NCBI RefSeq assembly: GCF_900177245.1
Contig: NZ_FXBM01000001.1
Coordinates: forward strand, 124,001-188,000
Origin: Rathayibacter oskolensis
Lineage (GTDB): Bacteria > Actinomycetota > Actinomycetes > Actinomycetales > Microbacteriaceae
Direction: 5' to 3'
DNA length: 64,000 nt
The notes below the pieces were generated by a model that saw only the letters and a program-made list of their open reading frames with translations, was not told where the DNA came from and searched no databases. Position 1 is the first letter of the stretch. The number at the start of each line of letters is the position of its first letter. Shown piece by piece: positions 2,782-20,416 of this stretch. The translations under genes were made by a program, and so were the position numbers.

Positions 2782-4212
2782 TCAGGCGCCGTTGCGCAAC
2801 CGCACCGTCGGCAGCATCACCAGCGCCCCGAGCGCCACTGCCGCCGCCGCCGCCGACAGCGCGAACACCAGCGGCAGCCCGAGCGCGTACGCCTCCGCCT
2901 CCGTCGCCCCGGCCTGCGTCAGCACTCCGATCCGCGCCGACAGCGCCGCTCCGTACCCCACCAGCCCGACGGTGCCGCCGAGCGTGAAGAAGAACACGAT
3001 CGCCGCGCTCACCGAGCCGGTCCGCCCCGGAGGCGCCACGGTCTGCGCCGCGAGGACGAGGTTCTGCAGCGACATGCCGAGGCCGGCCGAGAGCAGCAGG
3101 GCGCCGGTCAGCGCGAGGGGCAGCGGAGCGAGGGGCGCCAGGGCGAGGGCGGCGTTGCCGACGAGCATGGCCGCCGCCGCGAGGAGCAGCACGCCCTTCA
3201 CACGCCCGCGCCTCGTGATCGCCCGGCCGGCGGCGAAGGAGGCGATCACCGCGCCGACCGCCATCGGCGCCAGCAGCAGACCGGCCGGCGCGGGATCGAT
3301 GCCGAGCCCGATCTGGAGGTACTGCGTGACGAAGACCGAGCCTCCGAAGAGCGTCGAACCGAGCAGCACGGCGGCCACCGCGCACACCAGCGGCACGCGC
3401 GACGCCAGCAGGCGCAGCGGGATGATCGGCGCGGCCACCCGGAGCTCGACGATCACGAGGGCGATCAGGGCGAGCAGCCCGAACGACCCGAACGCCGTGA
3501 AGGCCACGCCCGTCGCGCCCTCGCCGACGAGGGTCAGCGCGATCAGCGCCGAGGGGATCCCCGTCGCGATCAGCAGCGCGCCGGCGTAGTCGGTCCGCCC
3601 GCCGCGCGCGGCGACGGGGAGGCGCACGTGCAGGGTCGCGGTCAGCACCGCGAAGGAGGCGACGGCGAGCGGCAGCGCGACGACGAAGCACCAGCGCCAG
3701 CCGAGCGACTGCACCACGACGCCTCCGACGATCGGGCCGAGGATGGTCGCCGAGGTCTGCAGCGCCTGCAGCGAGCCGTTCACGCGGCCGCGCTCGCGCT
3801 GCGGGACGAGCAGGGCGACGGCCGCGATCGACACGGCGGCGGTGCCTCCGAGGCCCACGCCCTGCACGGCGCGGCCGGTCAGCAGCACGGCGGTGGTCGG
3901 GGCGAGGGCGGCGAGCACCGATCCGGCGATGAAGAGGCCGATGGCGCACTGCAGGATCCGCTTCGGCGCCACCAGATCGGCGAGGCGGCCCCAGAGCGGA
4001 GTCGTCGCGGTGTTGCCGAGGATCGTGGCGGCGACGAGCCAGGTCGAGAGGCCGGCGGCTCCCTCCAGCGACCGCATGACGGTCGGGACGCTGGTCGCGA
4101 CGATCGTGGCCGACAGGCCGGCGACGAACTGCGCGATCATCAGCCCCGCGAGGGGCCAGCGGGCACCGCGGAGCGACGGCGGCGCCTCCCGGACGGCAGT
4201 GCCGGCGGTCAC
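2782..4212 (-). CDS. MFS drug-efflux transporter (EmrB/QacA, DHA2 type)
   Basis: This 476-residue protein has about 14 hydrophobic segments. DHA2 signatures include LWGRLADLVAPKR after the second helix and the motif C stretch ILGPIVGGVVVQSLGWRW. It should export a small molecule using the proton gradient. It starts with GTG at 4212, only 4 bases after the stop of the alpha/beta hydrolase gene, so it is the last cistron of the monooxygenase operon (7687 to 2782). Export of an imported substrate's product or of a toxic intermediate fits this position. The family is clear; the substrate is unknown. Confidence 0.85.
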   Translation of the reverse strand: MTAGTAVREAPPSLRGARWPLAGLMIAQFVAGLSATIVATSVPTVMRSLEGAAGLSTWLVAATILGNTATTPLWGRLADLVAPKRILQCAIGLFIAGSVLAALAPTTAVLLTGRAVQGVGLGGTAAVSIAAVALLVPQRERGRVNGSLQALQTSATILGPIVGGVVVQSLGWRWCFVVALPLAVASFAVLTATLHVRLPVAARGGRTDYAGALLIATGIPSALIALTLVGEGATGVAFTAFGSFGLLALIALVIVELRVAAPIIPLRLLASRVPLVCAVAAVLLGSTLFGGSVFVTQYLQIGLGIDPAPAGLLLAPMAVGAVIASFAAGRAITRRGRVKGVLLLAAAAMLVGNAALALAPLAPLPLALTGALLLSAGLGMSLQNLVLAAQTVAPPGRTGSVSAAIVFFFTLGGTVGLVGYGAALSARIGVLTQAGATEAEAYALGLPLVFALSAAAAAVALGALVMLPTVRLRNGA

Positions 4213-4216
4213 GACC

Positions 4217-5023
4217 TCACGCCGGCACCCGGGTGCCGACCGCCTCGAGCACGGCGGCGGTGAACTCTCGAGGGGCGCGCCTCGGGAACTGTCCGCTCAC
4301 CGGCATCTCGACGACGCGGGTGCCGGGCATGTCGGTGAACTCGATCGGGATGTCGAGGGTCATCCGCGCCCACGGCGGGCGCAGCACGGTGAGCTCGACG
4401 CCCGCCTCGACCAGCGCGAGGTTGTCGGCCCAGGTCTTCGCCCGCCCGCGGAACACCGCGGGGTAGATCGAGTTGTAGCGCTCGAGATTGCCGAGGGTGT
4501 CGGCGACGCAGCCCAGGAGCGCCCGCGGGTCGTCGGTGCCGTAGAGGCCGACGTTCTTCTCCCACAGGTACTGCAGCACCGAGCCGTCGGCGGTGACCGG
4601 CAGCTCGGGAGCCCAGTTCTCGGCCCAGAACTCGGTCGACTCCTCGTCGGGCTCCTCGAGGGCGTAGAGCACAGCCCGCTGCACCCGTCCGGTGCCCAGC
4701 AGCGACACGGCGATCGCCGTCGCGAGCGAGCTGCCGGTCTTCATGCCCACGGGCACGAACTCGCCGACCCCCAGCGCATCGAGCGCCTGCACGAGGATCC
4801 GCGCGTACTCGGCGAGCGGCTGCCCGGCGGGGGCCGAGTCGCTCTGACCGAAGCCGGGGGTGTCGAAGGCGAGGGTCGTCGTGTGCTCGCCGAGCGCCTC
4901 CATCACGGGCTCGTAGACGGCGGAGGTGCGGGGCGACTCGTGCAGCAGCACGATCGCCGGGCCTCCCGAGCCGCTCCTGCGGTAGTGCAGCTGACCCCAG
5001 TCGGTGTCGACGTATCCGCGCAT
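4217..5023 (-). CDS. Alpha/beta-hydrolase fold protein lacking the nucleophile serine
   Basis: A 268-residue alpha/beta-hydrolase fold with an oxyanion-type HESPRTS at 28-34 and DTPGFGQSD at 54-62. The nucleophile elbow reads GMKTG (93-97), with Lys95 where GxSxG hydrolases have Ser. From memory, a related branch has GxHTG there, so loss of Ser may be ancestral, but Lys is unusual. The gene lies between the two-monooxygenase pair and the MFS gene in one minus-strand operon, 31 bases after the 439-residue monooxygenase gene. It may act on the oxidised product without classical Ser chemistry. The start is ATG at 5023, with AGGAGAG about 5 bases ahead. Confidence 0.8.
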   Translation of the reverse strand: MRGYVDTDWGQLHYRRSGSGGPAIVLLHESPRTSAVYEPVMEALGEHTTTLAFDTPGFGQSDSAPAGQPLAEYARILVQALDALGVGEFVPVGMKTGSSLATAIAVSLLGTGRVQRAVLYALEEPDEESTEFWAENWAPELPVTADGSVLQYLWEKNVGLYGTDDPRALLGCVADTLGNLERYNSIYPAVFRGRAKTWADNLALVEAGVELTVLRPPWARMTLDIPIEFTDMPGTRVVEMPVSGQFPRRAPREFTAAVLEAVGTRVPA

Positions 5024-5054
5024 GGTCTCTCTCCTTGGGTACGGGTGGGATGTC

Positions 5055-6374
5055 TCAGAACTCGAGCAGGTTGTCGCGCAGCTGGTCGAACGAGTACTCG
5101 CGCCGCGTGAGGCCGCGCCGCTGCAGCTCCGGGACGAGGCCGTCGCAGATCTCGGCGATGAAGCGGCGGGTGACGCCGCTCGTCGAGATGAGGAAGCCGT
5201 CGCCGCCGGCGACGCGCATCATCTCCTCCATCTGGTCGGCCACCGACTCGGGAGTGCCGGCGATGACGGGGCCGTTGCCGACTCCGCGCGAGACGACCGC
5301 CTCCCGGAGCGTCTTGGTCGCGTTGCGCGAGACGAAGTCGCTGAGCTGCTGGGTGCCGTTCGTCTGCAGCTCGAGGGAGCCGAGCGGCACGTCGAGCGGG
5401 ACCTGCGCGAAGTCGATGTCGGTCGACTTCGCCATCGCGGCCAGGTGCACCTCGATGTTCTCGGCGATGTCGTCGCGGCGCAGGCGCACCCGCTCGTCCG
5501 CCTCCACCTGCGTCGACCCGACGATGGGGCCGACGCCGAAGAGCACCTTGATGTCGTCGGGGTCGCGGCCGAACGAGAGCGCGGCGGCGCGCACCTTGTC
5601 GCGGTAGGTCTTCATCGACTCGGCCGTCGCGTGGATCGCGACGATGGTGTCGGCGTACTTCGCGGCGAAGGCGATGCCGCGGGGCGATCCTCCGGCCTGC
5701 GAGATCACCGGCCGGCCCTGGGGGAGGGGCCCGGTGTTCAGGGGCCCGCGGGTGGAGTAGTGGCTGCCCCGGTAGTCGGCCCGCCGCACCTTCGTGTGGT
5801 CGGCCCAGTAACCGGTCTCGGAGTCGGCGACCACGGAGTCCGGGTCCCAGGTGTCCCAGAGGGCGATGGCCGCCTTCAGGAAGTCCTCGGCGACGTCGTA
5901 GCGCGAGTCGTGCTCGTCCATCCCGTCGAACCCGTAGTTCTGCAGCGCCCGATCGGAGGTGCCGGTCACCACGTTCACGCCCATCCGGCCGCCCGAGAGC
6001 TGGTCGATCGACGCGGAGAGCCGCGCGAGCATGTAGGGGTGGTAGGCGAAGGTGCCCGCTGTCGCGACGATCCCGAGGTGCTGGGTCGCCTGCGCGAGCA
6101 GGGTCGCGGTGACCATCGGATCCTGCCGCGGCGTCTGGAACGCGTGCTTGAGGTACAGCTCCATCGAGTCGCCGTAGCGATCGCCGACGAACGTGTTGTC
6201 CTCGATCAGCACGTAGTCGAAGCGCGCCCGCTCCATCGCCCGCGCGAGATCGACGAAGATCTCGGCCTGCTGCCACTGCGTGCCGATCGCGCCCGAGAAC
6301 TCCTGCCCCCAGGCCGGCACCGAGGTGCCGTTGAGGAACCAGCCGAGGTGGAACGGGGCGACGCCGCCGCCCAT
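5055..6374 (-). CDS. FMN-dependent monooxygenase, NtaA/SnaA/DszA family (copy 2)
   Basis: A 439-residue flavin-dependent oxidoreductase of the luciferase-like TIM-barrel fold. Family marks include APFHLGWFLNG at the N-terminus, GGRMGVNVVTGTSDRALQNYG in the middle, and VISQAGGSPRG near the phosphate-binding region. Such enzymes use FMNH2 delivered by a separate reductase plus O2 to cleave C-N, C-S or similar bonds. The ATG at 6374 shares one base with the stop of the upstream monooxygenase (TGATG), so the two are translationally coupled and may work in sequence. The open frame continues far upstream, but the overlap and homology place the start here. The reductase partner is probably the gene at 9527-10222. 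Confidence 0.85.
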   Translation of the reverse strand: MGGGVAPFHLGWFLNGTSVPAWGQEFSGAIGTQWQQAEIFVDLARAMERARFDYVLIEDNTFVGDRYGDSMELYLKHAFQTPRQDPMVTATLLAQATQHLGIVATAGTFAYHPYMLARLSASIDQLSGGRMGVNVVTGTSDRALQNYGFDGMDEHDSRYDVAEDFLKAAIALWDTWDPDSVVADSETGYWADHTKVRRADYRGSHYSTRGPLNTGPLPQGRPVISQAGGSPRGIAFAAKYADTIVAIHATAESMKTYRDKVRAAALSFGRDPDDIKVLFGVGPIVGSTQVEADERVRLRRDDIAENIEVHLAAMAKSTDIDFAQVPLDVPLGSLELQTNGTQQLSDFVSRNATKTLREAVVSRGVGNGPVIAGTPESVADQMEEMMRVAGGDGFLISTSGVTRRFIAEICDGLVPELQRRGLTRREYSFDQLRDNLLEF

Positions 6375-7687
6375 CAGAACGCCGCCAGGTTCGCCTTGAA
6401 GGTGGGCTCGTCGTAGGAGGTGCGGATGAGGCCGCGACGGCGCAGCGCCGGGGCGAGCCCGCTCGCGATCTCGTCGATGTAGCGGCGCGAGTGCGTGCGG
6501 ACCGGCTCGCCGCGGACGAGGAACCCGTCGCCTCCGACGAAGTCGACGACCTCCTCCATCTGCTCGGCGACCGAATCGGGGGTGCCGACGAGCTTCACGG
6601 ACTCGGAGGACTGGCCCATCAGCGCCTCGCGGATCGTCTTGCCCGCCGCCCGCTTCTTGAACGACGCGAGCCCCGACTGGTGCCCGTTGGTCGAGACGTC
6701 GTCGGGCAGCGGCTGATCGAGGTCGAACTGCTTGAAGTCGACCTCGGTGGTGATCGACATGATGCCGAGGACCGTCTCGATCTGGTCCTGGGTGAGCTCG
6801 TAGCGGCGGCGCGCGAGCTCGTCCGCGTCGGCCTGCGTCTCGCCGAGCACGGGCTGGATGATGTACATCACCTTCACGTCGTCCGGGTTGCGGCCGTGGG
6901 CGGCGGCGCGGGCGCGGATGTCGTCGCGGTACTCCTTCATCCCCTCCACTCCGCTGGGCTGCGAGAGCAGCACGTTCGAGTGCTTGGCGGCGAAGTCGCG
7001 ACCGGCGGGGGAGCCGCCCGCCTGGCAGAGAACGGGGTGCCCCTGCGGGCCGGCCGGGAGGTTGAGCGGCCCGCGCACCTTGAAGTACTTGCCCTCGTGG
7101 TGGATGGGGTGCACCTTCGTGTGGTCGGCGAGGACGCCGGTCTCGCGGTCGGCGATGATCGCGCCGGGCTCCCACGAGTCCCAGAGCGCCTTCACGACGC
7201 TGACGTACTCCTCGGCCATCGCGTAGCGCTCGTCGTGCGGGAGCAGATGGTCGAGGCCGTAGTTCTGGCCGGCGAGGTCCTCGGAGGAGGTGACGATGTT
7301 CCAGCCGACGCGCCCCTTGGTCAGGTGGTCCATCGTCGCCATGGTGCGGGCGAGGATGAACGGCGGGTAGAAGCTGGTCGACATCGTCGCGATGAAGCCC
7401 ATCTTCGAGGTGTGCTGCGCGAGCACGGGGAGCAGCGGCACGGGGTCGCCCTTGGGCGAGTGCAGTCCGTGCTTGAGGTCGTTCTCGGTCGTGCCGCCGT
7501 AGGTGTCCGACACGAGCGTCGAGTCCTCGAACATCATGAAGTCGAAGCCGGCCCGCTCGAGCTGCCGCGCCATGTCGATGTAGTAGTCGCCGTTGAGCCA
7601 GGTCATCGGGGTGTCGGCGGCCCAGGGGCTCTTCCACGCGGGGGTCTTGAACGGGGTGAACCAGGCGAGGTGGAACGGGGTGACCAT
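6374..7687 (-). CDS. FMN-dependent monooxygenase, NtaA/SnaA/DszA family (copy 1)
   Basis: A 437-residue paralogue of the downstream gene, with TPFHLAWFTPF at the N-terminus, KGRVGWNIVTSSEDLAGQNYG around residue 140, and PVLCQAGGSPAGRDFA. This is the NtaA/SnaA/DszA/DmoA luciferase-like group, which depends on reduced FMN. The ATG at 7687 is preceded by AAGGAG 9 bases upstream. The frame extends further upstream, but that part is compositionally non-coding. It is the first gene of the operon running down to 2782. The 361-base gap upstream should hold its promoter, but no convincing -35/-10 pair was found. The substrate is unknown. Confidence 0.85.
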   Translation of the reverse strand: MVTPFHLAWFTPFKTPAWKSPWAADTPMTWLNGDYYIDMARQLERAGFDFMMFEDSTLVSDTYGGTTENDLKHGLHSPKGDPVPLLPVLAQHTSKMGFIATMSTSFYPPFILARTMATMDHLTKGRVGWNIVTSSEDLAGQNYGLDHLLPHDERYAMAEEYVSVVKALWDSWEPGAIIADRETGVLADHTKVHPIHHEGKYFKVRGPLNLPAGPQGHPVLCQAGGSPAGRDFAAKHSNVLLSQPSGVEGMKEYRDDIRARAAAHGRNPDDVKVMYIIQPVLGETQADADELARRRYELTQDQIETVLGIMSITTEVDFKQFDLDQPLPDDVSTNGHQSGLASFKKRAAGKTIREALMGQSSESVKLVGTPDSVAEQMEEVVDFVGGDGFLVRGEPVRTHSRRYIDEIASGLAPALRRRGLIRTSYDEPTFKANLAAF

Positions 7688-8048
7688 GCGTTCGGGCTCC
7701 TTCTTCAGTCGTGCGCGGACGCGGTGCTGCCGTGCTTGCGCTCTGGAGGCCATTCCACAGGGCGCAGATTTCGCCGGGGGAGCCACGGGGTGCCGATCTG
7801 ATTGCGCGCGAGAGCGGTGGCGGGATCGGGGCCTGACCAGGGGTTCTGCTCGGTCGCGCTCGCGAATTCGCCGGGGACGCGCTGGCGGCGGGTAGCCGCC
7901 GGTCGGCGCTCGCTGCCGTATCCGCCGCGAGGGGGAGCCGGATGGGTGCAGCGGAGGTCGTTCCTCCACAGGGCTGGATGAGGGTCGGGTTGTCGGGTTC
8001 GGTGGGCGCGGCGGGTCTGGTGTCGGTGGTCGCTGGTTCAATACTGGT
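7688..8048. other. Divergent intergenic region with a G-rich tract
   Basis: This 361-base gap separates the monooxygenase operon (minus) from the DUF222/HNH gene (plus). The plus strand has G runs at 7982-7984, 7987-7989, 7995-7997 and 8004-8006 with loops of 2, 5 and 6 bases, which fits a four-run G-quadruplex pattern; a fifth run is at 8013-8015. A TTCAAT box (8037-8042) lies 6 bases before the HNH start. No gene, terminator or clear operator is seen in the rest. Confidence 0.5.
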
Positions 8049-9374
8049 ATGAGAGATGCGGGTGAGATCCAAGCAGCGGAGGGGACACTCGGCGCGGTCG
8101 GTGGGCTCGCTGATCTTGCGGCGCAGTTGGGTCGCTCGTCGGCGCAGATGCTGCTCGCGCGGGCCGCGGCGCTGCATGCGGCCTACCTCGCGGCGCTCGC
8201 TGTTCCGGAGTCGTTCGCTCGCGGCGCCCGGCTCTCCCGCAGCGAGGCGGGCGATCTGGTGGAGCGGTCGATCCGGGCGGAGTTCGCGGTGGCGTTGGGG
8301 ATGTCCGAGCCGGCCGCGTGTCGGGTGCTCGAGCATGCGCAGCTGCTGATGGAGGACCTGCCGTGCACGCGGGCGGCCCTCCGGGACGCGCGGATCCTGT
8401 GGGAGGCGTCCGAGGTGATCTGCGCCGCGGCGAGCACCCTTCCGGCCGCGTCGCGGGGTGCGTTGGATGCGCGGGCGGCGGAGGCGGCGCTGGTGATGAC
8501 TCCGACGCAGCTGCGCAAGGCCGTGGGCCGGATGCGGGACCAGCTGCACGAGGAACCGCTCGTGCAGCGGCATGCGCGCGCCCGTCAAGATCGCACGGTG
8601 TGGGTCAGCCCGGAGATCGACGGGATGGCGACCCTCAGTGCGCTGCTGCCCGCGCCGGTGGCGATGGGCGCGTTCGATCGGATCGACCGCATCGCCCGGA
8701 CGCTGCGCGAGGGCACCGAAGGCGATGGCGGTGATGAGCGGACGCTCGCGCAGCTGCGGGCGGATGCGCTGGCCGACCTGCTCTGCGACGGCGATGTCGC
8801 CGGAACGACTCCGGTCAGCGGCGGGAAGGACCTCACCGCGACGTTCGTCCCCGGAGTGCGCGCGGAAGTGCGGATCACACTGCCCGCGAGCACTGCTGCG
8901 GGTCTGGACGACACCCCGGCGGATCTCGACGGCTACGGCCTGATCCCCGCCGACGTCGCCCGCGACCTGGTCGGTATCGGCGCGTCCTTCACCCGGGTCC
9001 TGACCGATCCGGACACCGGGAGGGTCGCCTCCGTCGGACGCACCCACCGCGTCCCTCCGCCACGCATGCGCCTGCACCTGCAGCTGCGGGATCAGACCTG
9101 CCGCTTCCCCGGCTGCACCCGGTCAGGGTCCACGGCGGAGGCCGACCACACTCTCGAGTGGCGCAACGGCGGCGAGACCCGCCTCGAGAACCTCGCGTCG
9201 CTGTGCACCGCCCATCACCACGTCCGCCACGGCGACCGCTGGACCTACCTCCTCCGACCTGACGGCACCGCGGAGTGGTCCACCCCCACGGGACGCCGGG
9301 TCACCACGAGCCCGCCGCCACTCCCCGGGCGACCACCCGGGCCACGCTTCGATGACGAGCTGCCACCGTTCTGA
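8049..9374 (+). CDS. DUF222 / HNH endonuclease domain protein (13E12 repeat family)
   Basis: This 441-residue protein has a long helical DUF222 region (about 1-300) and a C-terminal HNH nuclease domain (about 345-395). The HNH part shows CRFPGC, then EADHTLEWRNGGET, then LCTAHHHVRH, so the metal-binding Cys and His residues are intact. A Pro-rich tail follows. The family is present in many copies in actinobacterial genomes and behaves like a mobile or selfish gene; its cellular role is not established. It is the only plus-strand gene inside the 2.8-20.4 kb minus-strand island, and an inverted pair of dispersed repeats lies just downstream (9393-9488). No Shine-Dalgarno is seen before the ATG, so a leaderless start is likely. 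Confidence 0.85.
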   Translation: MRDAGEIQAAEGTLGAVGGLADLAAQLGRSSAQMLLARAAALHAAYLAALAVPESFARGARLSRSEAGDLVERSIRAEFAVALGMSEPAACRVLEHAQLLMEDLPCTRAALRDARILWEASEVICAAASTLPAASRGALDARAAEAALVMTPTQLRKAVGRMRDQLHEEPLVQRHARARQDRTVWVSPEIDGMATLSALLPAPVAMGAFDRIDRIARTLREGTEGDGGDERTLAQLRADALADLLCDGDVAGTTPVSGGKDLTATFVPGVRAEVRITLPASTAAGLDDTPADLDGYGLIPADVARDLVGIGASFTRVLTDPDTGRVASVGRTHRVPPPRMRLHLQLRDQTCRFPGCTRSGSTAEADHTLEWRNGGETRLENLASLCTAHHHVRHGDRWTYLLRPDGTAEWSTPTGRRVTTSPPPLPGRPPGPRFDDELPPF

Positions 9375-9392
9375 CGTTCGTAGGAAGGTGGG

Positions 9393-9488
9393 TCTTGATA
9401 CGCCGCTGCGCGGCTACTCGACCAGCAAGCGCCAGGGTGTGCCTGATGCCTGCTGATCGAGCAGCCGCGCAGTGGGCATTTCGAGATC
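9393..9488. repeat. Inverted pair of dispersed intergenic repeats (REP/REPIN-like)
   Basis: The first arm (9393-9426) reads TCTTGATACGCC, GCTGCGCGGC, then TACTCGACCAGC. The second arm (9452-9488) is the same family in reverse orientation, CTGATCGAGCAGCCGCG then TTTCGAGATC. Each arm holds a small GCCG...CGGC-type palindrome. The arms are separated by 25 bases and follow the HNH gene directly. Related arms occur at 55066-55103 and 55155-55190. Confidence 0.65.
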
Positions 9489-9526
9489 CGCTACCGGCCG
9501 GCTGGGAGGCCGGCAGGGCGCGCGGG

Positions 9527-10222
9527 TCAGACCGCGGCGGCCGCCTGCTCGCGCGACCAGGCCGCGGCCGCGGCGAGCTCGTCGGGGTCGACGGGCGCGG
9601 CCACCGCACCGCCGGGCTGGGACGCGAGCCACTCCTCCGTCGCCACGGGCACGGGGTGCTTGTAGTCGCTCGTGACCGTCGTGTAGAGCGAGCCGCCGAG
9701 GCGGGCGACCGGGCGGTACTTCGCGATGTCGATGCGACCGCTCCCGTCGAGGATCCCGTCGTCGGCGTGCACCGCGAGCACCTGAGCGAACACGACGTGC
9801 GCGTCGTACACCTCGGTCTCGCGCAGCAGCACGCACTCGAGCGCGACCTTCGCCATCGCGAGCCGCTTCGGGCGGACCCGCGTGGAGTCGAGCAGCTCGA
9901 GCCCCAGCAGCGCCGCCTCGTCGACCGACGGAGGCGTGATCGCGGCCGTCGCGGTCTGGACCTCGGCCTGCCCGTCGGTGACGAGGTTGACCACGAACTC
10001 GCCCGTCGCGGCGATGTTGTCGTGCGAGTCCTTCTCGCCGGTGAACGAGATCATCAGGGTGGGCGGGTCCATCGTCACGAGCGTGAAGTACGAGAAGGGG
10101 GCGAGGTTGCCCACTCCTTCGGCGCTCTCGGTGCCGACCCAGGCGATCGGCCGGGGCACCACCGCGTTCTTGACCATCCAGATGAAGTCGTGGGTCGCTC
10201 CGGTGTCGTCAGCGAGGTACAT
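9527..10222 (-). CDS. Flavin reductase domain protein (FMN reductase partner)
   Basis: A 231-residue protein with the flavin-reductase-like FMN-binding split barrel. It shows VVPRPIAWVGT, NLAPFSYFT and HDNIAATGEFVVNLV in family order, ending in a low-complexity Ala-rich tail. It would reduce FMN with NAD(P)H and pass FMNH2 to the two monooxygenases at 5055-7687. The start ATG at 10222 follows the stop of the solute-binding protein gene by only 12 bases, so it is the last cistron of the importer operon. The DUF222/HNH gene now separates it from the monooxygenases. A reductase of this family without flavin supply would be inactive; the riboflavin kinase at 16622 may provide it. Confidence 0.8.
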   Translation of the reverse strand: MYLADDTGATHDFIWMVKNAVVPRPIAWVGTESAEGVGNLAPFSYFTLVTMDPPTLMISFTGEKDSHDNIAATGEFVVNLVTDGQAEVQTATAAITPPSVDEAALLGLELLDSTRVRPKRLAMAKVALECVLLRETEVYDAHVVFAQVLAVHADDGILDGSGRIDIAKYRPVARLGGSLYTTVTSDYKHPVPVATEEWLASQPGGAVAAPVDPDELAAAAAWSREQAAAAV

Positions 10223-10234
10223 GCGCGGCCCCCC

Positions 10235-11764: not shown

Positions 11765-11861
11765 GGGGGAGTGCCTTTCGTCGAGGGGCGGGCGCGCGGG
11801 GGCGGCACCCGACCGGCGCGGGGACGCGCGGGAGGGTCGTGAAGGCGGAGCTGGGTGCTGC

Positions 11862-11909
11862 GGTGCTGCGGTGGGTCGGTGCTGCGGTGGGTCGGTGCTG
11901 TGGTGGGTC
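11862..11909. repeat. Three tandem 16-bp repeats between ATPase and binding-protein genes
   Basis: Three adjacent units, GGTGCTGCGGTGGGTC twice and GGTGCTGTGGTGGGTC once, occupy 11862-11877, 11878-11893 and 11894-11909; a shortened unit precedes them. The last unit overlaps the ATPase stop codon (11908-11910). It lies in the intercistronic part of the importer message. Copy number may vary between strains. Confidence 0.75.
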
Positions 11910-13575: not shown

Positions 13576-13578
13576 GCG

Positions 13579-14508
13579 CTACTCCGCCTTCTGCGACTGG
13601 ACGCCGGTGAGGCGCTGGCTCATGAACTGGAGCCCGGCGACGAGCATGAACAGCATCACGCCGGGGAGGATCGTGATCATCGGGCTGTCGCGGAGGTAGG
13701 TCTGTCCCTCCTCGATCATCCCGCCCCAGCTGGGGGTGGGCGCCTGGATGCCGAGGCCCAGGAACGACAGCGCCGCCTCGAGCAGCACGATCACGCCGAG
13801 GTCGAAGGGCACCAGCACGGCGAGGGCGGGGACGACGTTCGGCACGAGGTGCTTGCGGAGGATCCAGCCGTGCGTCGCGCCGTGGGTCTTCGGCGCCCAG
13901 ATGAACTCGCGCTCCCGGAGCGACCAGGCCGTCGCCCGGGCGACGCGAGCGTAGCCGACCCAGTTGGCGACTCCGATGACCACGATCAGGGTGATCACGC
14001 TCGGGCCGACCGCCGAGACGATCGCGATCAGCAGCAGCATGATCGGAATGGCGAGCTGGATGTCGGACAGCGCCGAGATGACGTTGTCGAGCCGGCCGCC
14101 GAAGTAGCCCGCGATGAGCCCGAGGGTGACGCCGATCAGCAGGTTCAGCGCGACGGCCGGCACCGCGATCGAGAGCGAGACGCGGCCCGCGACGGCGAGC
14201 CGCGAGAGCAGGTCGCGGCCGAGCGCGTCGGTGCCGAGCAGGTGCGCCGGGTCGGCGAACGGCAGGAGGAAGCGGGCGCGCAGATCCTGCGTGTCGGGGT
14301 CGAAGAAGGGCAGCACCGGCACGAGCACGATGGTCAGCACGACGATGACGACGAGCCCGGTGGCCACGTAGAAGGAGGCGCTCAGCGGCGTGCGCGACGA
14401 GCCCGGCTGCGGCCTGCGGAACAGCCAGCGCACCCGCTGGATCGCGAGGGTCTGGGTGGAGGTCGGCGCGGACGCGGGGGTCGGCACCAGGATCGGGTCG
14501 GGGCTCAC
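13579..14508 (-). CDS. ABC importer permease (DppC type)
   Basis: A 309-residue inner-membrane permease with about six helices. The N-terminal segment and the [19 protein letters not shown] element are typical of DppC/OppC proteins, and the ATPase-contact loop ([23 protein letters not shown], split by position about 195-217) is present. It pairs with the DppB-type permease to form the channel. The GTG start at 14508 overlaps the stop of that gene by 4 bases (GTGA), indicating translational coupling. Confidence 0.9.
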
Positions 14509-15422
14509 TGCAGTCTCACTCTCGGGTCGAGTGCCGCGTAGACGAGGTCGACGAGGAAGTTGACGAGGACGAAGAACAGCGCGATGACGAGGATCGCCGA
14601 CTGCACGACGGTGTAGTCGCGGTTCGAGATCGACTGCATCAGCAGCTGCCCGACTCCCGGCCAGTTGAAGACCAGCTCGACGACCACCGTGCCGCCCAGC
14701 AGGGCGCCCAGGTTCAGGCCGGCGACGGTGATCACGGGGAGGAGCGCGTTGGGCAGCATGTGGCGGAGGATGACGACGCTCCGACGCTGCCCCTTCGCGT
14801 AGGCGGTGCGGACGTAGTCCATCCGGTACTGCTCGGCGAAGCCGGTGTCGAGGAGGCGGATGTAGAGCGCGAGCTCGAGGGTCGCGATCGTCACCGCCGG
14901 CAGGATGATCGACAGCGGCGAGTTGTTGCCCAGCGCGGGCAGCACGCCCAGGCTCACGGCGAACACCATCACCAGCAGGATGCCGAACCAGAACGACGGG
15001 ATCGCCTGGCGGGCGCTGGCGAACCAGAGCACCGCGTTGCGCAGCCGCGACGAGTCCGACAGCTGCAGGATCAGCACCACCACGAACGCGAGCGCGAGCC
15101 CGAGGACGAAGCTGGTGAGCGCGAGCTGGAGCGTGGCGGGCATCCGCTGCAGCACCAGCTCGAGCGAGGGCGTTCCCTGGCGGAGGGAGTCGCCGAAGTC
15201 GCCGGTGATCGCCCCCGCGAGGAAGCCGGTGTACTGGAACAGGAGCGGCTGGTCGAAGCCGAGGCTCGCCGAGAGGCGCGCGATGTCCTCCTGCGACGCC
15301 TCCGGCCCGAGGAGCAGGGCGGCGGGGTTGCCCGACAGGCGGACGAGGAAGAAGGCGACCGTCACGACTCCGAAGACCGTGACGAGGCCCTGGACGAGCC
15401 GGCGTGAGACGAAGCGGACCAC
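14505..15422 (-). CDS. ABC importer permease (DppB type)
   Basis: A 305-residue permease with the DppB/OppB N-terminal helix followed by RLSGNPAALLLGPEAS and the loop RTAYAKGQRRSVVILRHMLPNA that docks on the ATPase. About six membrane helices are visible. It is the first gene of the importer operon (15422 down to 9527) and starts with GTG at 15422, preceded by AAAGGAG. Just upstream lie a five-fold 17-bp repeat and then the GntR/UTRA gene, so expression is probably regulated at that site. Confidence 0.9.
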   Translation of the reverse strand: MVRFVSRRLVQGLVTVFGVVTVAFFLVRLSGNPAALLLGPEASQEDIARLSASLGFDQPLLFQYTGFLAGAITGDFGDSLRQGTPSLELVLQRMPATLQLALTSFVLGLALAFVVVLILQLSDSSRLRNAVLWFASARQAIPSFWFGILLVMVFAVSLGVLPALGNNSPLSIILPAVTIATLELALYIRLLDTGFAEQYRMDYVRTAYAKGQRRSVVILRHMLPNALLPVITVAGLNLGALLGGTVVVELVFNWPGVGQLLMQSISNRDYTVVQSAILVIALFFVLVNFLVDLVYAALDPRVRLQ

Positions 15423-15480
15423 TCGGGCTCCTTTCGCTGGGGGCGACGCTCGAGACGTGACCGGTGGGGAGGTGCTGCCT

Positions 15481-15558
15481 GATCAGTACAGGTACCTGAT
15501 CAGTACAGGTGCCTGATCAGTACAGGTGCCTGATCAGTACAGGTGCCTGATCAGTACA
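15481..15558. repeat. Tandem 17-bp repeat array, candidate operator for the importer operon
   Basis: Four full units GATCAGTACAGGTGCCT (the first has A for G at position 13) and a fifth 10-base partial unit run head to tail. Each junction contains the palindrome CTGATCAG, and CCTG...CAGG arms recur. The array sits 59 bases before the importer start codon and 106 bases after the GntR/UTRA stop. The 17-bp spacing puts successive palindromes on rotated faces of the helix. Operator function is inferred from position. Confidence 0.8.
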
Positions 15559-15565
15559 GCGGGTG

Positions 15566-15595
15566 GGTATTTCGGCACCGCGTCGTCGCCGTCAA
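15566..15595 (-). promoter_or_regulatory. Candidate promoter of the importer operon
   Basis: Read on the minus strand, TTGACG (15595-15590) and AATACC (15571-15566) are separated by 18 bases. Transcription would begin just inside the 17-bp repeat array, so a protein bound to the array would block the polymerase. The -10 match is weak (3 of 6). Confidence 0.35.
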
Positions 15596-15664
15596 CGTCT
15601 GATTGCGCATCGCGTCATCTGAACGGAAACAGATCCTGACCAGGGATTTCGATCGGAGGGGCCG

Positions 15665-16534
15665 TCAATTCGCCGGTGCCGTGTCCGTCGCGCGGTCGGC
15701 GGGAGCGGTGGTGAAGCGCATCGCCTCCACGTCCGGGTCCTCGGCCCAGAGCGCGACACGGTCGCCGCGGTAGTGGCCGTAGGCGAGGATCTGCGGCACG
15801 CCCGCCGCGTCGCGCACGAGCGTCTCGCGGGTCAGGATCGCGGCGCCCTCCTTGAGGCCCAGGATGCGCGCGGTGCGCTCGTCGGCGTTGACCGCCTCGA
15901 CCGTCGCCTCCACCTGGTTGCCGGGCGCGGCGCGGACCGAGTCGATGAACACCCGGACCGAGTCGGCGAGCCCGAGCGGGTCGGGTCGGACGCCCGGGGG
16001 AGTCGCTCCCGCGAGGGGGTGGTAGCCGACGATGATCCCGGCGGGCACGCCCTCGATCGACACGAGCTGCTCGGCCAGCACCACCCGGTCGCCCTCGAGC
16101 TCGAGGCGCTCGCGGATGTGGCGGTGGGCGATCACCTCGCTGACGTCGGTGACCTCGCAGGTCATCTCGAGTCCGCCCGGGTGCTGGACCGACTCCGAGC
16201 CCATCACCCAGCCGCTCGTCGGGAGGAGCGAGAGCAGGGGAAGCTCCCAGATGCTGCCGACGACGTTGGTGCCGATGCGCTGCCGGCGACGGATCAGGCC
16301 CTCGGAGCCGAGCTGCTGCAGAGCGCTGCGGATGGAGTTGCGGCTCATCATCATCGACATGACGAGGTCGTGCTCCTCGACCAGGTCGGACTCGGTGATG
16401 AGGCCGCGGCGGATGCTCGCGCGCAGCAGGGCGTGCGCGCGGCGCGGACTGCTCTGGAGCAGTTCGCGGATGCGGCGCTGGCTTCCCTCGCGGGCGCGAC
16501 CCAGTGCTTCGGCGAGCTCGAAATCGTCGTCCAT
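15665..16534 (-). CDS. GntR-family regulator with UTRA ligand-binding domain
   Basis: A 289-residue regulator. A winged helix-turn-helix lies around residues 55-100 (SRNSIRSALQQLGSEGLIRRRQRIGTNV, given here in positions), after an unusually long helical lead of about 50 residues. The UTRA domain follows (about 120-280), with the typical FIDSVRAAP and LTRETLVRDAAGVP. UTRA domains sense small molecules, often the substrate of the neighbouring transporter. The chosen ATG at 16534 has GAGGAGG 8 bases ahead; an ATG 39 bases further upstream lacks a site. It probably controls the importer operon through the repeat array just downstream of the gene. Confidence 0.85.
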   Translation of the reverse strand: MDDDFELAEALGRAREGSQRRIRELLQSSPRRAHALLRASIRRGLITESDLVEEHDLVMSMMMSRNSIRSALQQLGSEGLIRRRQRIGTNVVGSIWELPLLSLLPTSGWVMGSESVQHPGGLEMTCEVTDVSEVIAHRHIRERLELEGDRVVLAEQLVSIEGVPAGIIVGYHPLAGATPPGVRPDPLGLADSVRVFIDSVRAAPGNQVEATVEAVNADERTARILGLKEGAAILTRETLVRDAAGVPQILAYGHYRGDRVALWAEDPDVEAMRFTTAPADRATDTAPAN

Positions 16535-16621
16535 CGCGTGCCTCCTCAGGGGGCCTCCGGCCCGAATACCCAACGTATGTGGGGTTTTGCACGGCCAGTC
16601 GCGCGTTGCGTTAACCCTGCG

Positions 16622-17326
16622 TTACAAGGGCCTGCGCGCCGCGGCGAGGAGGTCCTGCGTGGTCGGGTACGCCCAGCGGAGGTAGGCGACCGGGATGCGG
16701 CTGCGCTCGGCGACGAGCTCGTGGGTCGCCTCGCGCGCCTCCCCGCCGTCGAGCAGGTCGTCGACCGAGCGGGCGAGGGCCGCGAGCCGGTGGGACTCGC
16801 GCGCGGCCCGCCTGCGCTCGGTCTCGTCGGCGTCGAGGATCCGCCGCGAGCGGACCGGGCCGCGGCGGCCGCGGTGCACCGGCTCGGCGTCGCGCTCGCG
16901 CGACCAGGTGCGCGTCGCGGCGACGTCGCGCTGCAGCTGCTCGACCAGCGCCTCCGCTCCGCGGTAGCGGCGCTGCGGGCGGAGCTTCACGTGCAGCTCG
17001 ACGCGGATCGCGTGGCCGTAGAGGTCGCCCGAGAAGTCGAGGAGGTGCGCCTCGAGGAGGCGCTCGCCGTCGCGGCCGTAGAAGCTCGCGCGGCGGCCGA
17101 CCGAGACGGCGGCGAGGTGCGAGGAGCCGTCGGTCTCGTCGATGACGGTGCCGGCGTAGACGCCGTCGGTGATGCCTCCGTGCCGGCCGTCCCCGTCGTC
17201 GAGCGGCAGGTTCGCGGTCGGGAAGCCGAGGAGCCGGCCGCGCTGGTCGCCCGGGACGACCACTCCGGACACGACCGCCGTCTCCTCCGGTGCGTCGGTG
17301 CGGGTCTGGTGGGGCTCGGGGCTCAT
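16622..17326 (-). CDS. Stand-alone riboflavin kinase domain protein with C-terminal extension
   Basis: A 234-residue protein whose first 140 residues match the riboflavin kinase half of RibF: GDQRGRLLGFPTANLPL (substrate and Mg loop), ITDGVYAGTV, and EAHLLDFSGDLYG with the catalytic Glu. The FAD-synthetase half is absent. The usual PTF motif is ASF here. A 95-residue Arg-rich helical extension (about 140-234) has no family I recognise. It would phosphorylate riboflavin to FMN, supplying the reductase and monooxygenases of the island. The ATG at 17326 has GAGGAG 6 bases upstream. The C-terminus may bind partners or regulate. The RibF gene proper is not in this window. Confidence 0.75.
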   Translation of the reverse strand: MSPEPHQTRTDAPEETAVVSGVVVPGDQRGRLLGFPTANLPLDDGDGRHGGITDGVYAGTVIDETDGSSHLAAVSVGRRASFYGRDGERLLEAHLLDFSGDLYGHAIRVELHVKLRPQRRYRGAEALVEQLQRDVAATRTWSRERDAEPVHRGRRGPVRSRRILDADETERRRAARESHRLAALARSVDDLLDGGEAREATHELVAERSRIPVAYLRWAYPTTQDLLAAARRPL

Positions 17327-17477
17327 GGCGGTCTCCTCGGCTATGGTGTGCCGCCAGTCAACCCGTCCGGCGTTTCGGCCCGATGACCTGCCGCTTCCAG
17401 TCGTATTGCGCCGTTCCGGCCCGCGTCGATCCGCGCCGCGCGGGCGATTGCGCGCCCTCGCGGAGCGGCGCCCGGCG

Positions 17478-19022
17478 CTACGCCGCCAGGAAGCGGTCGG
17501 CGGTGCGCAGCGAGAGCGCCATCGTCGCGAGCGCCGGGTTGGCGATCACGGCGCTCGGGAAGACCGAGTTGTCGCAGACCCAGAGGTTCGGGATGTCGAA
17601 GCTGCGGCCGTCGGGGTCGATCACCGCGTCCCCCGGGTCGGTCCCCATCCGGCAGGTGCCGATCGTGTGCGCCGTGCGGGCGAGCACTCGCGTGCTCGTC
17701 GCGCCCGCCGCTTCGACGATCGCGGTCATCGTGCGGATCGCGTGCGCGTCGATCGCCTCCTCGTTGGCGCCGGCCGAGAACGAGATGCGCGCCTTCGGGA
17801 CGCCGTGCTCGTCGAGCTCGTCGGTCAGCTCGAGGAGGTTGCCGTCGGCGGGCAGGCACTCGGCGTTGATGCCGACCCCGGCCAGGAACCGGTAGCCGTC
17901 GAGCGCGTCGACGAGGGCGCGCCCCCAGAGCCCGGCGCCGCGCGCCATCGAGGTGGCGAGGGTGAGCGGCATGACCCCGAGGCTCTGGATGAGGTAGCCC
18001 CCCGCGAAGTCGGCGTCGGCGGGCCGCACCGTGTCCTCGGTGATGACGGAGGAGGGGTAGCCGCGGTAGCCGCGCATCTCGGTCTCGAAGGTGCCCCAGA
18101 CCTGGGTCGCCCCGTGCGCGAGGAAGTTGCGGCCCACCTGCCCGCTGCTGTTGGCGAGACCGGTGTGCAGGAGCAGGCGCGGAGTCTCGACTCCGCCCGC
18201 GCACAGGAACAGGGCCGAGCAGCGCTGACGCCGCTCGACTCCGTCGGCGGTGTAGACGACCGCGCTCACCCGCCCTGCCGCGTCGAGCTCGATCCCGTGC
18301 ACGAACGACTCCGCGCGGATCTCGGCCCCCGCGCGCACCGCGAGCGGCAGATAGGTGTTCTCCATGCTCGCCTTGGCGCCGGTGCGGCAGCCCTGGTGGC
18401 ACTGGCCGCAGTTGACGCAGGCAGGGCGGTCGCCGAACCCGCCCTGATGCCGACCCCCGCTGAGCACGGCGGCGGGCGCGTCGGTGGCCCGGATGCCGAG
18501 GGCCTCGCAGCCGCGGAGCATCATGTCGGCCGACGCGTTGCGCCCGACCGGCCCCTGGAGGTAGCGGCGGGAGGGGTCCCACGGGTAGTCGGCCGGCCCC
18601 GAGACGCCGATGGTCGCCTCCACCTGCTCGAGGTACGCGGTCAGCTCGGCGTGCGCGACCGGCCAGTCCCGGCCGACGCCCGACTCCGAGCGGAGGAGCA
18701 GATCGCGCGGATCGGGCCGCGGGGTGAACGCGCCCCAGTGCAGCGTCGAACCGCCCACTCCGCGACCGCTGTTGTTCGGGCCGAACGCGGTGGGGGTCTC
18801 GCCGCCGCTCAGGCGCTCCTGCATCCAGTTGATCTGCGCGGCCGCGTCCTCGTCGGCCGTGTAGTCGATCGGATCGAAGAACGGGCCGGCCTCGAGGGCG
18901 ACGACGCGGAGGCCGCGTGCGGCGAGACTCGAGAGGAGGGGCGCGCCTCCCGCCCCCGTCCCGATGACGACGGCGTCGACGACCTCGTCGAGGGCGAAGC
19001 GGCGCATGCCGGTGGTGTTCAT
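17478..19022 (-). CDS. GMC-type FAD-dependent alcohol/sugar oxidoreductase with Cys-rich motif
   Basis: A 514-residue GMC-family flavoprotein. It has the FAD-binding VIGTGAGGAPLLSSLAARG at 19-37, the GVGGSTLHWGAF loop near 88-99, a cysteine cluster Cys202-Cys205-Cys208-Cys212 (CVNCGQCHQGC), and C-terminal HTIGTCRMG and NPALATMALSLRTAD. Members of this branch dehydrogenate alcohols or sugars and pass electrons to a small subunit of the gluconate 2-dehydrogenase subunit 3 type; such a domain is encoded in the overlapping upstream gene. The ATG at 19022 overlaps that gene's stop by 4 bases. The start used gives the shortest sensible N-terminus. Confidence 0.85.
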   Translation of the reverse strand: MNTTGMRRFALDEVVDAVVIGTGAGGAPLLSSLAARGLRVVALEAGPFFDPIDYTADEDAAAQINWMQERLSGGETPTAFGPNNSGRGVGGSTLHWGAFTPRPDPRDLLLRSESGVGRDWPVAHAELTAYLEQVEATIGVSGPADYPWDPSRRYLQGPVGRNASADMMLRGCEALGIRATDAPAAVLSGGRHQGGFGDRPACVNCGQCHQGCRTGAKASMENTYLPLAVRAGAEIRAESFVHGIELDAAGRVSAVVYTADGVERRQRCSALFLCAGGVETPRLLLHTGLANSSGQVGRNFLAHGATQVWGTFETEMRGYRGYPSSVITEDTVRPADADFAGGYLIQSLGVMPLTLATSMARGAGLWGRALVDALDGYRFLAGVGINAECLPADGNLLELTDELDEHGVPKARISFSAGANEEAIDAHAIRTMTAIVEAAGATSTRVLARTAHTIGTCRMGTDPGDAVIDPDGRSFDIPNLWVCDNSVFPSAVIANPALATMALSLRTADRFLAA

Positions 19023-20416
19023 CGGTGACTCCTCGTGCTCGGCTCCCAGGGTTCCCGTTCGCCCGCGCCGAGCAGGCGGAAGCCGGGGATGAGCGCCGTG
19101 TCGCCGCCGGTCGCGTAGCCGTCGTAGCCGACGCGCGCCTGGATCGCGGGGTGGGCGAGCCACTGCCGCACGAGGTCGACGCGGCAGTCCTCGAACCAGG
19201 CGCTCAGCTGCTCGGGCGAGAGGCGCCCGGCCGGGCCGTCGGCCGGAGCCCCGTCGTCGGCCGGAGCCCGGCCGGCGGCCAGCGCCGTCAGCTCGGCGTC
19301 CTGCTCGTCGGCGGTGCGGGTCTCGAAGCCCGCGAGCCGGTCAAGGGCGAGAGCGTAGGCGACGGGGTCCGCGGGCAGCTCGGCGTTGCGCCAGCCGTCG
19401 CCGATCCCCTCGGCGAGCTGCGCGTCGACGCGGGCGGCCAGGTCGATCCGGGGGCCGTCCTGCGGCACGACCCGGTCGGCGATCGCGCGCAGGGTGCCCA
19501 GCTGCTCCGGGGTCAGCGCTCGGGGCGTGTAGCCGGGGTCGTCGGGGAGGGCGCGCTCCGACAGGATCGAGCGCACGCGCGTGCTGGTGCGGGCGGAGGC
19601 GATGGTGCTGGCCGCGTCGGCCGGGACGACCGGGGCGGTGCCGGCCTCCTCCTCCCAGAAGGCGCGGATCGCAGCGGCGATCTCGGCCGGGCGCTCGAAC
19701 GGCAGCACGTGCCCGGCGCCGTCGAGGGTCAGCATGCGGGAGCGCGGGTAGAGCGGGCGGTTGGTGCGCTCCTGCCCGTCGGTGCCCAGGTCGCCGTCGG
19801 CCCCGCCCGCGACGACGAGCGCCGGGAGCGACGCGACGGCGGCCTCAGCGGTGCTGTCGATCCGGCTCCCGGTCTCGAGCCAGTCGCGCCAGGCGGTCGG
19901 GGAGGCGCGGAGCAGCTGCGCGACCGCCGTCCGCTGGAGCTCGTCCGGGAGATCGCCGCCGAGGTTCTGCTCCAGGTACTCGTGCGCCTGCTCCTCGGTG
20001 AGCGGGCCGTCGTCGACCCAGCCGAGCATGGTGCGCCGCTGCTCCTCGTCCATCGGCTCGGGCGAGAGCGGTGAGGCGGCCAGCAGCACGACCCCCGAGA
20101 GCCCGAAGAGACCGGCCCGGCCGGACATCGTCCGGGAGGCGACCAGCGACGCGACCTTGCCGCCCATGCTGTGGCCGGCGATCATCCAGCGGGTCGACCC
20201 GTGCGCGCGGATGCGGCGGACGACGAACGCGACCGTCTGCTCCAGCGAGTTCTCGGGGCTGTCGCGCTCGTCGCCGAAGCCGGGCAGATCGAGCGCCACC
20301 ACCTCGACGACACCGTCGAGCTCCCGCATCAGCGGGTCGAAGAGCTGGCGGCCGAACCCGAGCCCGTGCAGGGCGAAGAGGGTCGGCCGGGCGGCCTCGG
20401 CGGCACTCGTGGGCAT
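19019..20416 (-). CDS. Fusion: alpha/beta hydrolase plus gluconate 2-dehydrogenase subunit 3-like domain
   Basis: A 465-residue protein of two parts. Residues 1-260 are an alpha/beta hydrolase with the nucleophile elbow GHSMGG (Ser83) and a C-terminal His in GAGHVLPF (His236). Residues about 295-465 resemble the small (subunit 3) partner of GMC dehydrogenases: LTPEQLGTLRAIADRVVPQDG, then CRVDLVRQWLAHPA and YDGYATGGDTALIPGF. The fusion would tether hydrolysis to the alcohol oxidation done by the next gene, whose ATG overlaps this stop (ATGA). The ATG at 20416 has GAGGAG 5 bases upstream. The fusion is real in the sequence because the frame is continuous and the linker is short. Confidence 0.75.
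   Translation of the reverse strand: MPTSAAEAARPTLFALHGLGFGRQLFDPLMRELDGVVEVVALDLPGFGDERDSPENSLEQTVAFVVRRIRAHGSTRWMIAGHSMGGKVASLVASRTMSGRAGLFGLSGVVLLAASPLSPEPMDEEQRRTMLGWVDDGPLTEEQAHEYLEQNLGGDLPDELQRTAVAQLLRASPTAWRDWLETGSRIDSTAEAAVASLPALVVAGGADGDLGTDGQERTNRPLYPRSRMLTLDGAGHVLPFERPAEIAAAIRAFWEEEAGTAPVVPADAASTIASARTSTRVRSILSERALPDDPGYTPRALTPEQLGTLRAIADRVVPQDGPRIDLAARVDAQLAEGIGDGWRNAELPADPVAYALALDRLAGFETRTADEQDAELTALAAGRAPADDGAPADGPAGRLSPEQLSAWFEDCRVDLVRQWLAHPAIQARVGYDGYATGGDTALIPGFRLLGAGEREPWEPSTRSHR

Follow-up and report, generated by a model that had tools for sequence, protein, structure and literature searches.

Two-component flavin mononucleotide (FMN) monooxygenases depend on free FMNH2, and to our knowledge it has rarely been asked how cells match cofactor supply to these enzymes. 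In the operon of RibR, a flavokinase of Bacillus subtilis, the neighbouring genes encode LLM monooxygenases (YtnJ) and a transporter, and the kinase of the archaeal protein RbkR is CTP-dependent and belongs to another family. The available part of one report describes RibR as an additional flavokinase that is encoded in a sulfur operon and has a regulatory function (PMC7693651), and that of another presents RbkR as a riboflavin kinase and transcriptional regulator with an N-terminal helix-turn-helix (HTH) (PMC8305020). The rca system of riboflavin catabolism is described, in the available part of its source, as a five-gene set that includes RcaE (PMC12746152). Here we analyse a 64,000-nucleotide stretch of Rathayibacter oskolensis DNA (contig NZ_FXBM01000001.1, positions 124,001 to 188,000; hereafter the window), in which a conserved island combines an ABC importer, a GntR-UTRA regulator, a flavin reductase and two NtaA/DmoA-family FMN-dependent monooxygenases, LLM1 and LLM2, with a riboflavin kinase that carries a C-terminal extension of predicted TetR-type HTH fold.

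We consider it probable, if far from certain, that the island serves the import and FMNH2-dependent oxidation of an organic compound, with the kinase raising FMN supply and its HTH tying that supply to expression. Specifically, the dipeptide-type ABC transporter would import the compound, the neighbouring flavin reductase would make FMNH2 for both monooxygenases, and LLM1 and LLM2 would oxidise the compound either one after the other or as two enzymes of differing specificity; the hydrolase-fold protein would act downstream of them or in export, by something other than ordinary hydrolysis, and an MFS transporter would export or import a product. The kinase would turn riboflavin into FMN and so raise the local supply for both monooxygenases, its binding to DNA would tie FMN-making capacity to monooxygenase expression, and it may report the flavin state to promoters. 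The data show the gene set and its synteny, a kinase fold with the conserved PTAN motif and glutamate, a TetR-like fold of the C-terminus, the association of extra kinases with LLM enzymes and the boxes that promoters share. FMN supply as the role of the kinase, its DNA binding, the regulator that binds the promoter boxes and the class of substrate are all points that we infer.

The riboflavin kinase and the conservation of its island

The kinase reaches 105.8 bits against PF01687 (cut-off 19.6), and its GFPTAN motif and E92 are invariant in all 10 aligned rows, the PTAN motif and the catalytic glutamate being what we take to be the functional motifs of riboflavin kinases. It is not a bifunctional RibF, its match to RibF models being confined to their C-terminal kinase portion (103.1 versus 295 bits), and each of five related genomes also has a separate kinase domain in an open frame of 473-484 aa. 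A kinase scan gave two close matches, in the genomes of Microbacteriaceae bacterium VKM Ac-2855 and VKM Ac-2854, and in a search of 398 Microbacteriaceae genomes, five genomes yielded six full-length hits (E 3e-89 to 8e-78), well ahead of the following hit at 1.4e-27. In all four fetched loci with an LLM1 orthologue of at least 94% (G360, G119a, G304 and G001), the order kinase, GntR regulator, two permeases, ABC ATPase, solute-binding protein, flavin reductase, LLM1, LLM2, hydrolase-fold protein and MFS transporter is kept on the same strand, and within the genus of G360 the LLM1 matches at this level are restricted to these four syntenic loci. The recurring gene order is more than chance. 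An earlier first-pass annotation of this DNA had proposed checking whether the order recurs in other Microbacteriaceae, as it does here, and had called the dedicated riboflavin kinase unusual; the kinase is indeed a real and unusual member, present at all four syntenic loci, and no syntenic cluster lacking it, the outcome named beforehand as speaking against the proposal, was found.

Moreover, the kinase-HTH occurs in 5 of 15 genomes of the genus of G360, and the identical five carry LLM1-clade enzymes at E <= 1e-110; the chance of this co-occurrence is 1 in 3003 if genomes are independent, a condition that does not fully hold. In G002, the LLM1-clade enzymes are encoded elsewhere in the genome than the kinase-HTH. 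Next to a second kinase-HTH gene, seen at L049/L101 (G119 contig C20), there is an ABC importer and a series of five or more NtaA/DmoA-family genes.

Additional riboflavin kinases are often found next to FMN monooxygenases. Across 21 Microbacteriaceae-family genomes with more than one kinase domain, an LLM gene lies within about 10 kb of 15 of the 22 extra kinases and of none of the 21 RibF controls, and a flavin-reductase gene lies within about 10 kb of 17 of the 22 versus 0 of the 21 (G127, with a single and unclear kinase match, is excluded from the 22). Three of the seven LLM misses are syntenic loci in which LLM1 starts about 9.4-10.4 kb off, right at the edge of the fetched sequence or past it, and the others are G002, G090, G249 and G179, the stretches of the last two being ended by contig ends; in G010 the LLM gene sits 8.5 kb from the extra kinase on the opposite strand. 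Nine annotated loci on plasmids that encode a stand-alone riboflavin kinase, a set that leaves out L061 (Ensifer, unannotated), Agrobacterium sp. 13-2099-1-2 and Rhizobium NIBRBAC000502774, among others, show in the stretch displayed an LLM gene in eight cases (all except Sphingobium) and a flavin reductase in eight (all except Agrobacterium cucumeris). The riboflavin-making 3,4-dihydroxy-2-butanone-4-phosphate synthase is encoded nearby in two Phaeobacter loci and in the Peribacillus locus, and the presence of such an enzyme near plasmid kinases therefore favours FMN supply over FMN destruction. These dedicated kinases beside FMN monooxygenases suggest a general answer to the problem of cofactor matching, and they caution that a riboflavin kinase does not by itself mean that riboflavin is degraded. 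In a third group of extra kinases (L071-L075, in G298, G381, G063 and G229), the neighbours are a flavin reductase and two LLM genes of a different type, only 30-33% identical to any enzyme compared.

The C-terminal extension and the promoter boxes

Alignment of the kinase C-terminus by hhalign gave 1.2e-4 against TetR N-termini and 2.2e-5 against 11 independently collected ones, with 0.57 for the reversed control and 0.87, 0.47 and 0.71 for GntR, IclR and LysR alignments, respectively. The three matches of the HTH profile outside kinases are all read as TetR regulators, and among the VIA-align matches listed, 15 PDB rows fall on residues 164-234, of which 7 are titled TetR and the remaining 8 belong to the TetR family as well. 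Within the extension of the kinase, conservation is highest in the HTH core. Sequence comparison and the structural model thus point to a TetR-like fold that is broader than the Pfam model, and the kinase probably binds DNA through this TetR-type HTH; no report of a fusion between a riboflavin kinase and a TetR-type HTH was found in the openly licensed papers searched. At L113, L114 and L119, the kinase and the HTH are encoded in separate or neighbouring frames, which in L114 are preceded by an LLM gene and followed by a flavin reductase.

A GCGCAAT box stands at all three island promoters, and the 993 bp of island intergenic DNA hold four copies versus 0.11 expected, a number reached in 0 of 20,000 resamplings. 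The box GCGCAATCAG, taken from the intergenic alignment, has only two exact copies in the window, before the ABC operon and before LLM1, and two copies altogether in 36 other loci (693,021 bases). Upstream of the kinase-HTH genes of this genus, GGCGCAAT is found in seven of seven cases, including G002 and G119b with their differing neighbours. A more specific proposal, which we put forward tentatively as possible but somewhat doubtful, is that the protein is a bacterial flavin kinase-transcription factor that would sense riboflavin, FMN or its own turnover and, through its HTH and the GCGCAAT boxes, control its own gene, the importer and the monooxygenases. If true, the cell would produce the monooxygenases only under conditions in which it can provide their cofactor, and the protein would be the counterpart, evolved independently in bacteria, of archaeal RbkR; the TetR-type HTH on the kinase makes such coupling of supply and expression directly testable.

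Several results weigh against a kinase that regulates through its HTH. The Pfam family TetR_N (PF00440) was unmatched by all seven C-termini even at E 10, and a Pfam scan of the kinase C-terminus gave DUF5338 alone (E 0.2). The 50 matches listed by Foldseek for the whole model were kinases and unrelated proteins, with no TetR among them; the TetR ligand/dimer domain is absent, the protein ending after the HTH; and the HTH is fused in three of six further family members, standing in a separate or neighbouring frame in the other three. The kinase is also the least conserved of the island genes bar DUF222 (66-72% versus 73-99% at the syntenic loci). With regard to the boxes, the word was picked after the alignments had been viewed; it also precedes two extra kinases without an HTH (G249 and G010) and is missing upstream of all six kinase-HTH genes from other genera; the two-box spaced promoter pattern gave 1 match versus 1.0 expected; GCGCAATCAG with one mismatch is not enriched (8 versus 4.9); and 0 of 18 further LLM genes in G001, G002 and G119 have an own-strand box within 350 nt. 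At these distant LLM genes, G001 and G002 each have one opposite-strand box, 286 and 308 nt from the multi-LLM cluster, and G002 has a tandem box pair between an LLM gene and an ABC gene. As a protein acting on the boxes, GntR-UTRA is no less plausible than the kinase. Since the box precedes HTH-less kinases and is missing elsewhere, the protein that acts on it could be GntR, the kinase-HTH or something else.

The failure of Pfam to see a TetR domain, the fast evolution of the kinase and the boxes before the two HTH-less kinases, together with the conserved YLRWAYP stretch, judged unlike usual recognition helices, and the GntR-UTRA gene adjoining the main box, would suit a kinase that only supplies FMN, its HTH being decayed or structural (for oligomerisation or protein contact) and GntR alone regulating through the boxes. 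We regard this as rather unlikely: G002 and G119b keep the box at the kinase gene where the island GntR orthologue is not adjacent, and the HTH core, besides its conservation within the extension, persists in split-gene versions.

Monooxygenases, candidate substrates and gene content

LLM1 and LLM2, which are 44% identical to each other, both pass the TIGR03860 cut-off of 279.7 bits (416.5 and 379.8 bits). In a 40-row tree they fall in their own 100/100 clade of 19 rows with plasmid relatives (47-51%), and among the rows compared this clade includes no characterised enzyme; the firm grouping with a characterised enzyme of non-flavin substrate that the first-pass annotation had named as contrary to its view did not appear. 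The top PDB matches of LLM1 are YtnJ (250.9 bits), the NtaA-like 3sdo (246.2) and DszA (245.0); MoxC is the same protein sequence as YtnJ in the alignment, and the four span 245-251 bits. These scores are too close for a choice of substrate, and substrate assignment from PDB neighbours was dropped. The plasmid relatives of LLM1 occur beside creatininase and urea-type ABC genes in one setting, amine oxidase and dipeptide ABC genes in another, and sulfonate genes or a biosynthetic cluster in further ones. In the hydrolase-fold protein at 4217-5023, the nucleophile elbow has Lys (GMKTG) and the GHFP position has Gln for the usual His (SGQFP) in all five sequences, from which it is probably not an ordinary hydrolase.

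Two specific substrate classes were weighed against these data. The first is organosulfur: in a sulfur-scavenging operon like Bacillus ytmI, LLM1 and LLM2 would desulfurise an organosulfur compound and the kinase-HTH would be the functional counterpart of RibR. YtnJ is the best PDB match of LLM1, one plasmid LLM1 relative lies near genes named ssuA, ssuD and cysJI activator, and the available part of the source has RibR as a monofunctional flavokinase in a 12-gene sulfur-uptake unit that interferes with FMN riboswitches (PMC7693651). However, the near-equal scores of YtnJ, MoxC, 3sdo and DszA imply no substrate, other LLM1 relatives stand beside creatininase, amine oxidase or biosynthetic genes, and no FMN riboswitch is present in the window, where nothing in Rfam passed the gathering thresholds. 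We therefore judge a sulfur role unlikely.

The second is riboflavin itself. In an rca-like cluster, LLM1 or LLM2 would cleave riboflavin or attack lumichrome and the kinase would make the FMN cofactor from the imported vitamin, and kinase, flavin reductase and NtaA/DmoA-family enzymes are indeed co-located here as in rca loci. Nevertheless, the solved RcaE ranks only tenth among the PDB matches of LLM1 and likewise of LLM2 (206.8 and 186.9 bits), a comparison that the first-pass annotation had called for, and in the same tree RcaE and its kin form their own 100/100 clade joining LadA, DmoA and HcbA1, apart from LLM1 and LLM2. Eight genuine rca loci were found in the same family, with RcaE 72-80% identical to the solved enzyme, and the five genomes with a window-type kinase hold nothing above 43% to RcaE. 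One of the true loci, in G085, has an extra short kinase beside an LLM gene that matches the solved riboflavin lyase RcaE at 832 bits, with an NMT1-type importer, a PadR regulator and a flavin reductase, so that the importer (family 5 in the window) and the regulator (GntR in the window) differ. No ribokinase was found among the open reading frames (ORFs) scanned in 1560-22302; a ribokinase is present in the Maritalea rca locus and absent among the 10 ORFs of the G085 locus, which makes it a weak rca criterion. The island compound is, judging from these sequence comparisons, probably not riboflavin, and an rca-like role is highly improbable; riboflavin catabolism was rejected after the true rca loci had been found and the clades compared. 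The riboflavin or lumichrome substrate suggested by the first-pass annotation thus finds no support, and of its count of three rca activities out of four, the flavin reductase and the adjacent stand-alone kinase held, as did the missing ribokinase, and the RcaE-type lyase did not.

Gene calls, collected in Table 1, were made by Pfam/NCBIfam scans and inspection of start codons. The stretch 2782-20416 holds 14 genes, 13 of them on the minus strand, so that the one-strand arrangement reported earlier stands and its count of 11 in 12 is corrected. Every part then listed is present (ABC importer, GntR, kinase, flavin reductase, two monooxygenases, two hydrolase-fold proteins and GMC oxidoreductase). 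No orthologue of the GMC oxidoreductase or of the adjacent hydrolase fusion (abh-G3) was found at the four syntenic loci when 12-13 kb upstream of the kinase was inspected, one 33% GMC fragment being seen in G304; the conserved island therefore stops at the kinase and spans 2782-17326, about 3 kb short of the end first assigned to it. The claim of a single unit accordingly survives for the uptake and monooxygenation island and fails for GMC and abh-G3, which synteny rules out as members and which, with a neighbouring TetR gene, are a probable separate operon. The DUF222-HNH gene, present in three of the four syntenic loci and absent from G001, probably has no part in island function. The spacer between the GntR and permease genes contains, at 15476-15559, a 17-bp unit TGCCTGATCAGTACAGG in 4.9 tandem copies, absent from the four syntenic loci.

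Table 1. Positions of genes, domains and promoter boxes in and next to the island (window coordinates)
Feature	Position	Strand	Remarks
MFS transporter	2782-4212	minus	PF07690; in 4/4 syntenic loci
Alpha/beta-hydrolase-fold protein, non-canonical catalytic positions	4217-5023	minus	PF00561
LLM2, NtaA/DmoA-family FMN-dependent monooxygenase	5055-6374	minus	TIGR03860, 379.8 bits
LLM1, NtaA/DmoA-family FMN-dependent monooxygenase	6374-7687	minus	TIGR03860, 416.5 bits; 94-99% in 4 syntenic loci
GCGCAATCAG box, promoter region of monooxygenase operon	7798-7807	minus	same place in 5/5 genomes
DUF222-HNH gene	8049-9374	plus	PF02720; sole plus-strand gene of 2782-20416
Flavin reductase (predicted FMNH2 supply)	9527-10222	minus	PF01613, 87.8 bits; 83-94% in 4 syntenic loci
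Family-5 (dipeptide/nickel-type) solute-binding protein	10235-11764	minus	PF00496, 306.6 bits
ABC ATPase, two nucleotide-binding domains	11908-13575	minus	PF00005, two stretches
ABC permease 2	13579-14508	minus	PF00528
ABC permease 1	14505-15422	minus	PF00528; 94-98% in 4 syntenic loci
GCGCAATCAG box, promoter region of ABC operon	15599-15608	minus	same place in 5/5 genomes
GntR-UTRA regulator	15665-16534	minus	PF00392 and PF07702; 87-92% in 4 syntenic loci
Riboflavin kinase, Flavokinase domain (residues 18-141) and predicted C-terminal TetR-type HTH extension (about 166-234)	16622-17326	minus	PF01687
TetR_N-like HTH part of kinase	16622-16830	minus	model helices 166-193, 202-209, 213-219, 223-231
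GCGCAAT box upstream of kinase, first base 17411	17405-17411	minus	
Second GCGCAAT copy upstream of kinase	17447-17453	minus	42 nt from first
GMC oxidoreductase	17478-19022	minus	Pfam/NCBIfam scan
Alpha/beta hydrolase with in-frame gluconate-2-dehydrogenase-subunit-3-like part (abh-G3)	19019-20416	minus	that part 17.9 bits, below 23.4-bit cut-off

Comparison with described systems

By analogy, the island appears to operate as catabolic clusters with two-component FMN monooxygenases generally do. LLM1 and LLM2 far exceed the TIGR03860 cut-off of the NtaA/DmoA family (YtnJ, DszA, DmoA, LadA, HcbA1 and the EDTA/NTA monooxygenases), and differ from those enzymes in forming a separate 100/100 clade with their plasmid relatives. 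With the rca cluster of Microbacterium maritypicum, the island shares an NtaA/DmoA-family LLM, a flavin reductase, a stand-alone riboflavin kinase and an ABC importer placed together; in contrast, LLM1 and LLM2 are about 33% identical to RcaE and of another clade, the importer is of family 5 rather than NMT1-type, the regulator is GntR rather than PadR, and the kinase has an HTH where the rca kinases examined have none.

Among extra flavokinases with regulatory functions in sulfur operons, RibR is the nearest precedent. Both proteins are extra monofunctional flavokinases encoded beside LLM monooxygenases and a transporter, the regulatory role of RibR being reported in the available part of its source, and they differ in that RibR acts on RNA (the FMN riboswitch), whereas the window protein has a predicted TetR-type HTH. 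For a kinase-HTH protein as such, the nearest precedent is RbkR, which likewise joins a riboflavin kinase to an HTH in one protein; the window kinase, unlike RbkR, belongs to PF01687 and carries its HTH at the C-terminus: the two domains were combined independently.

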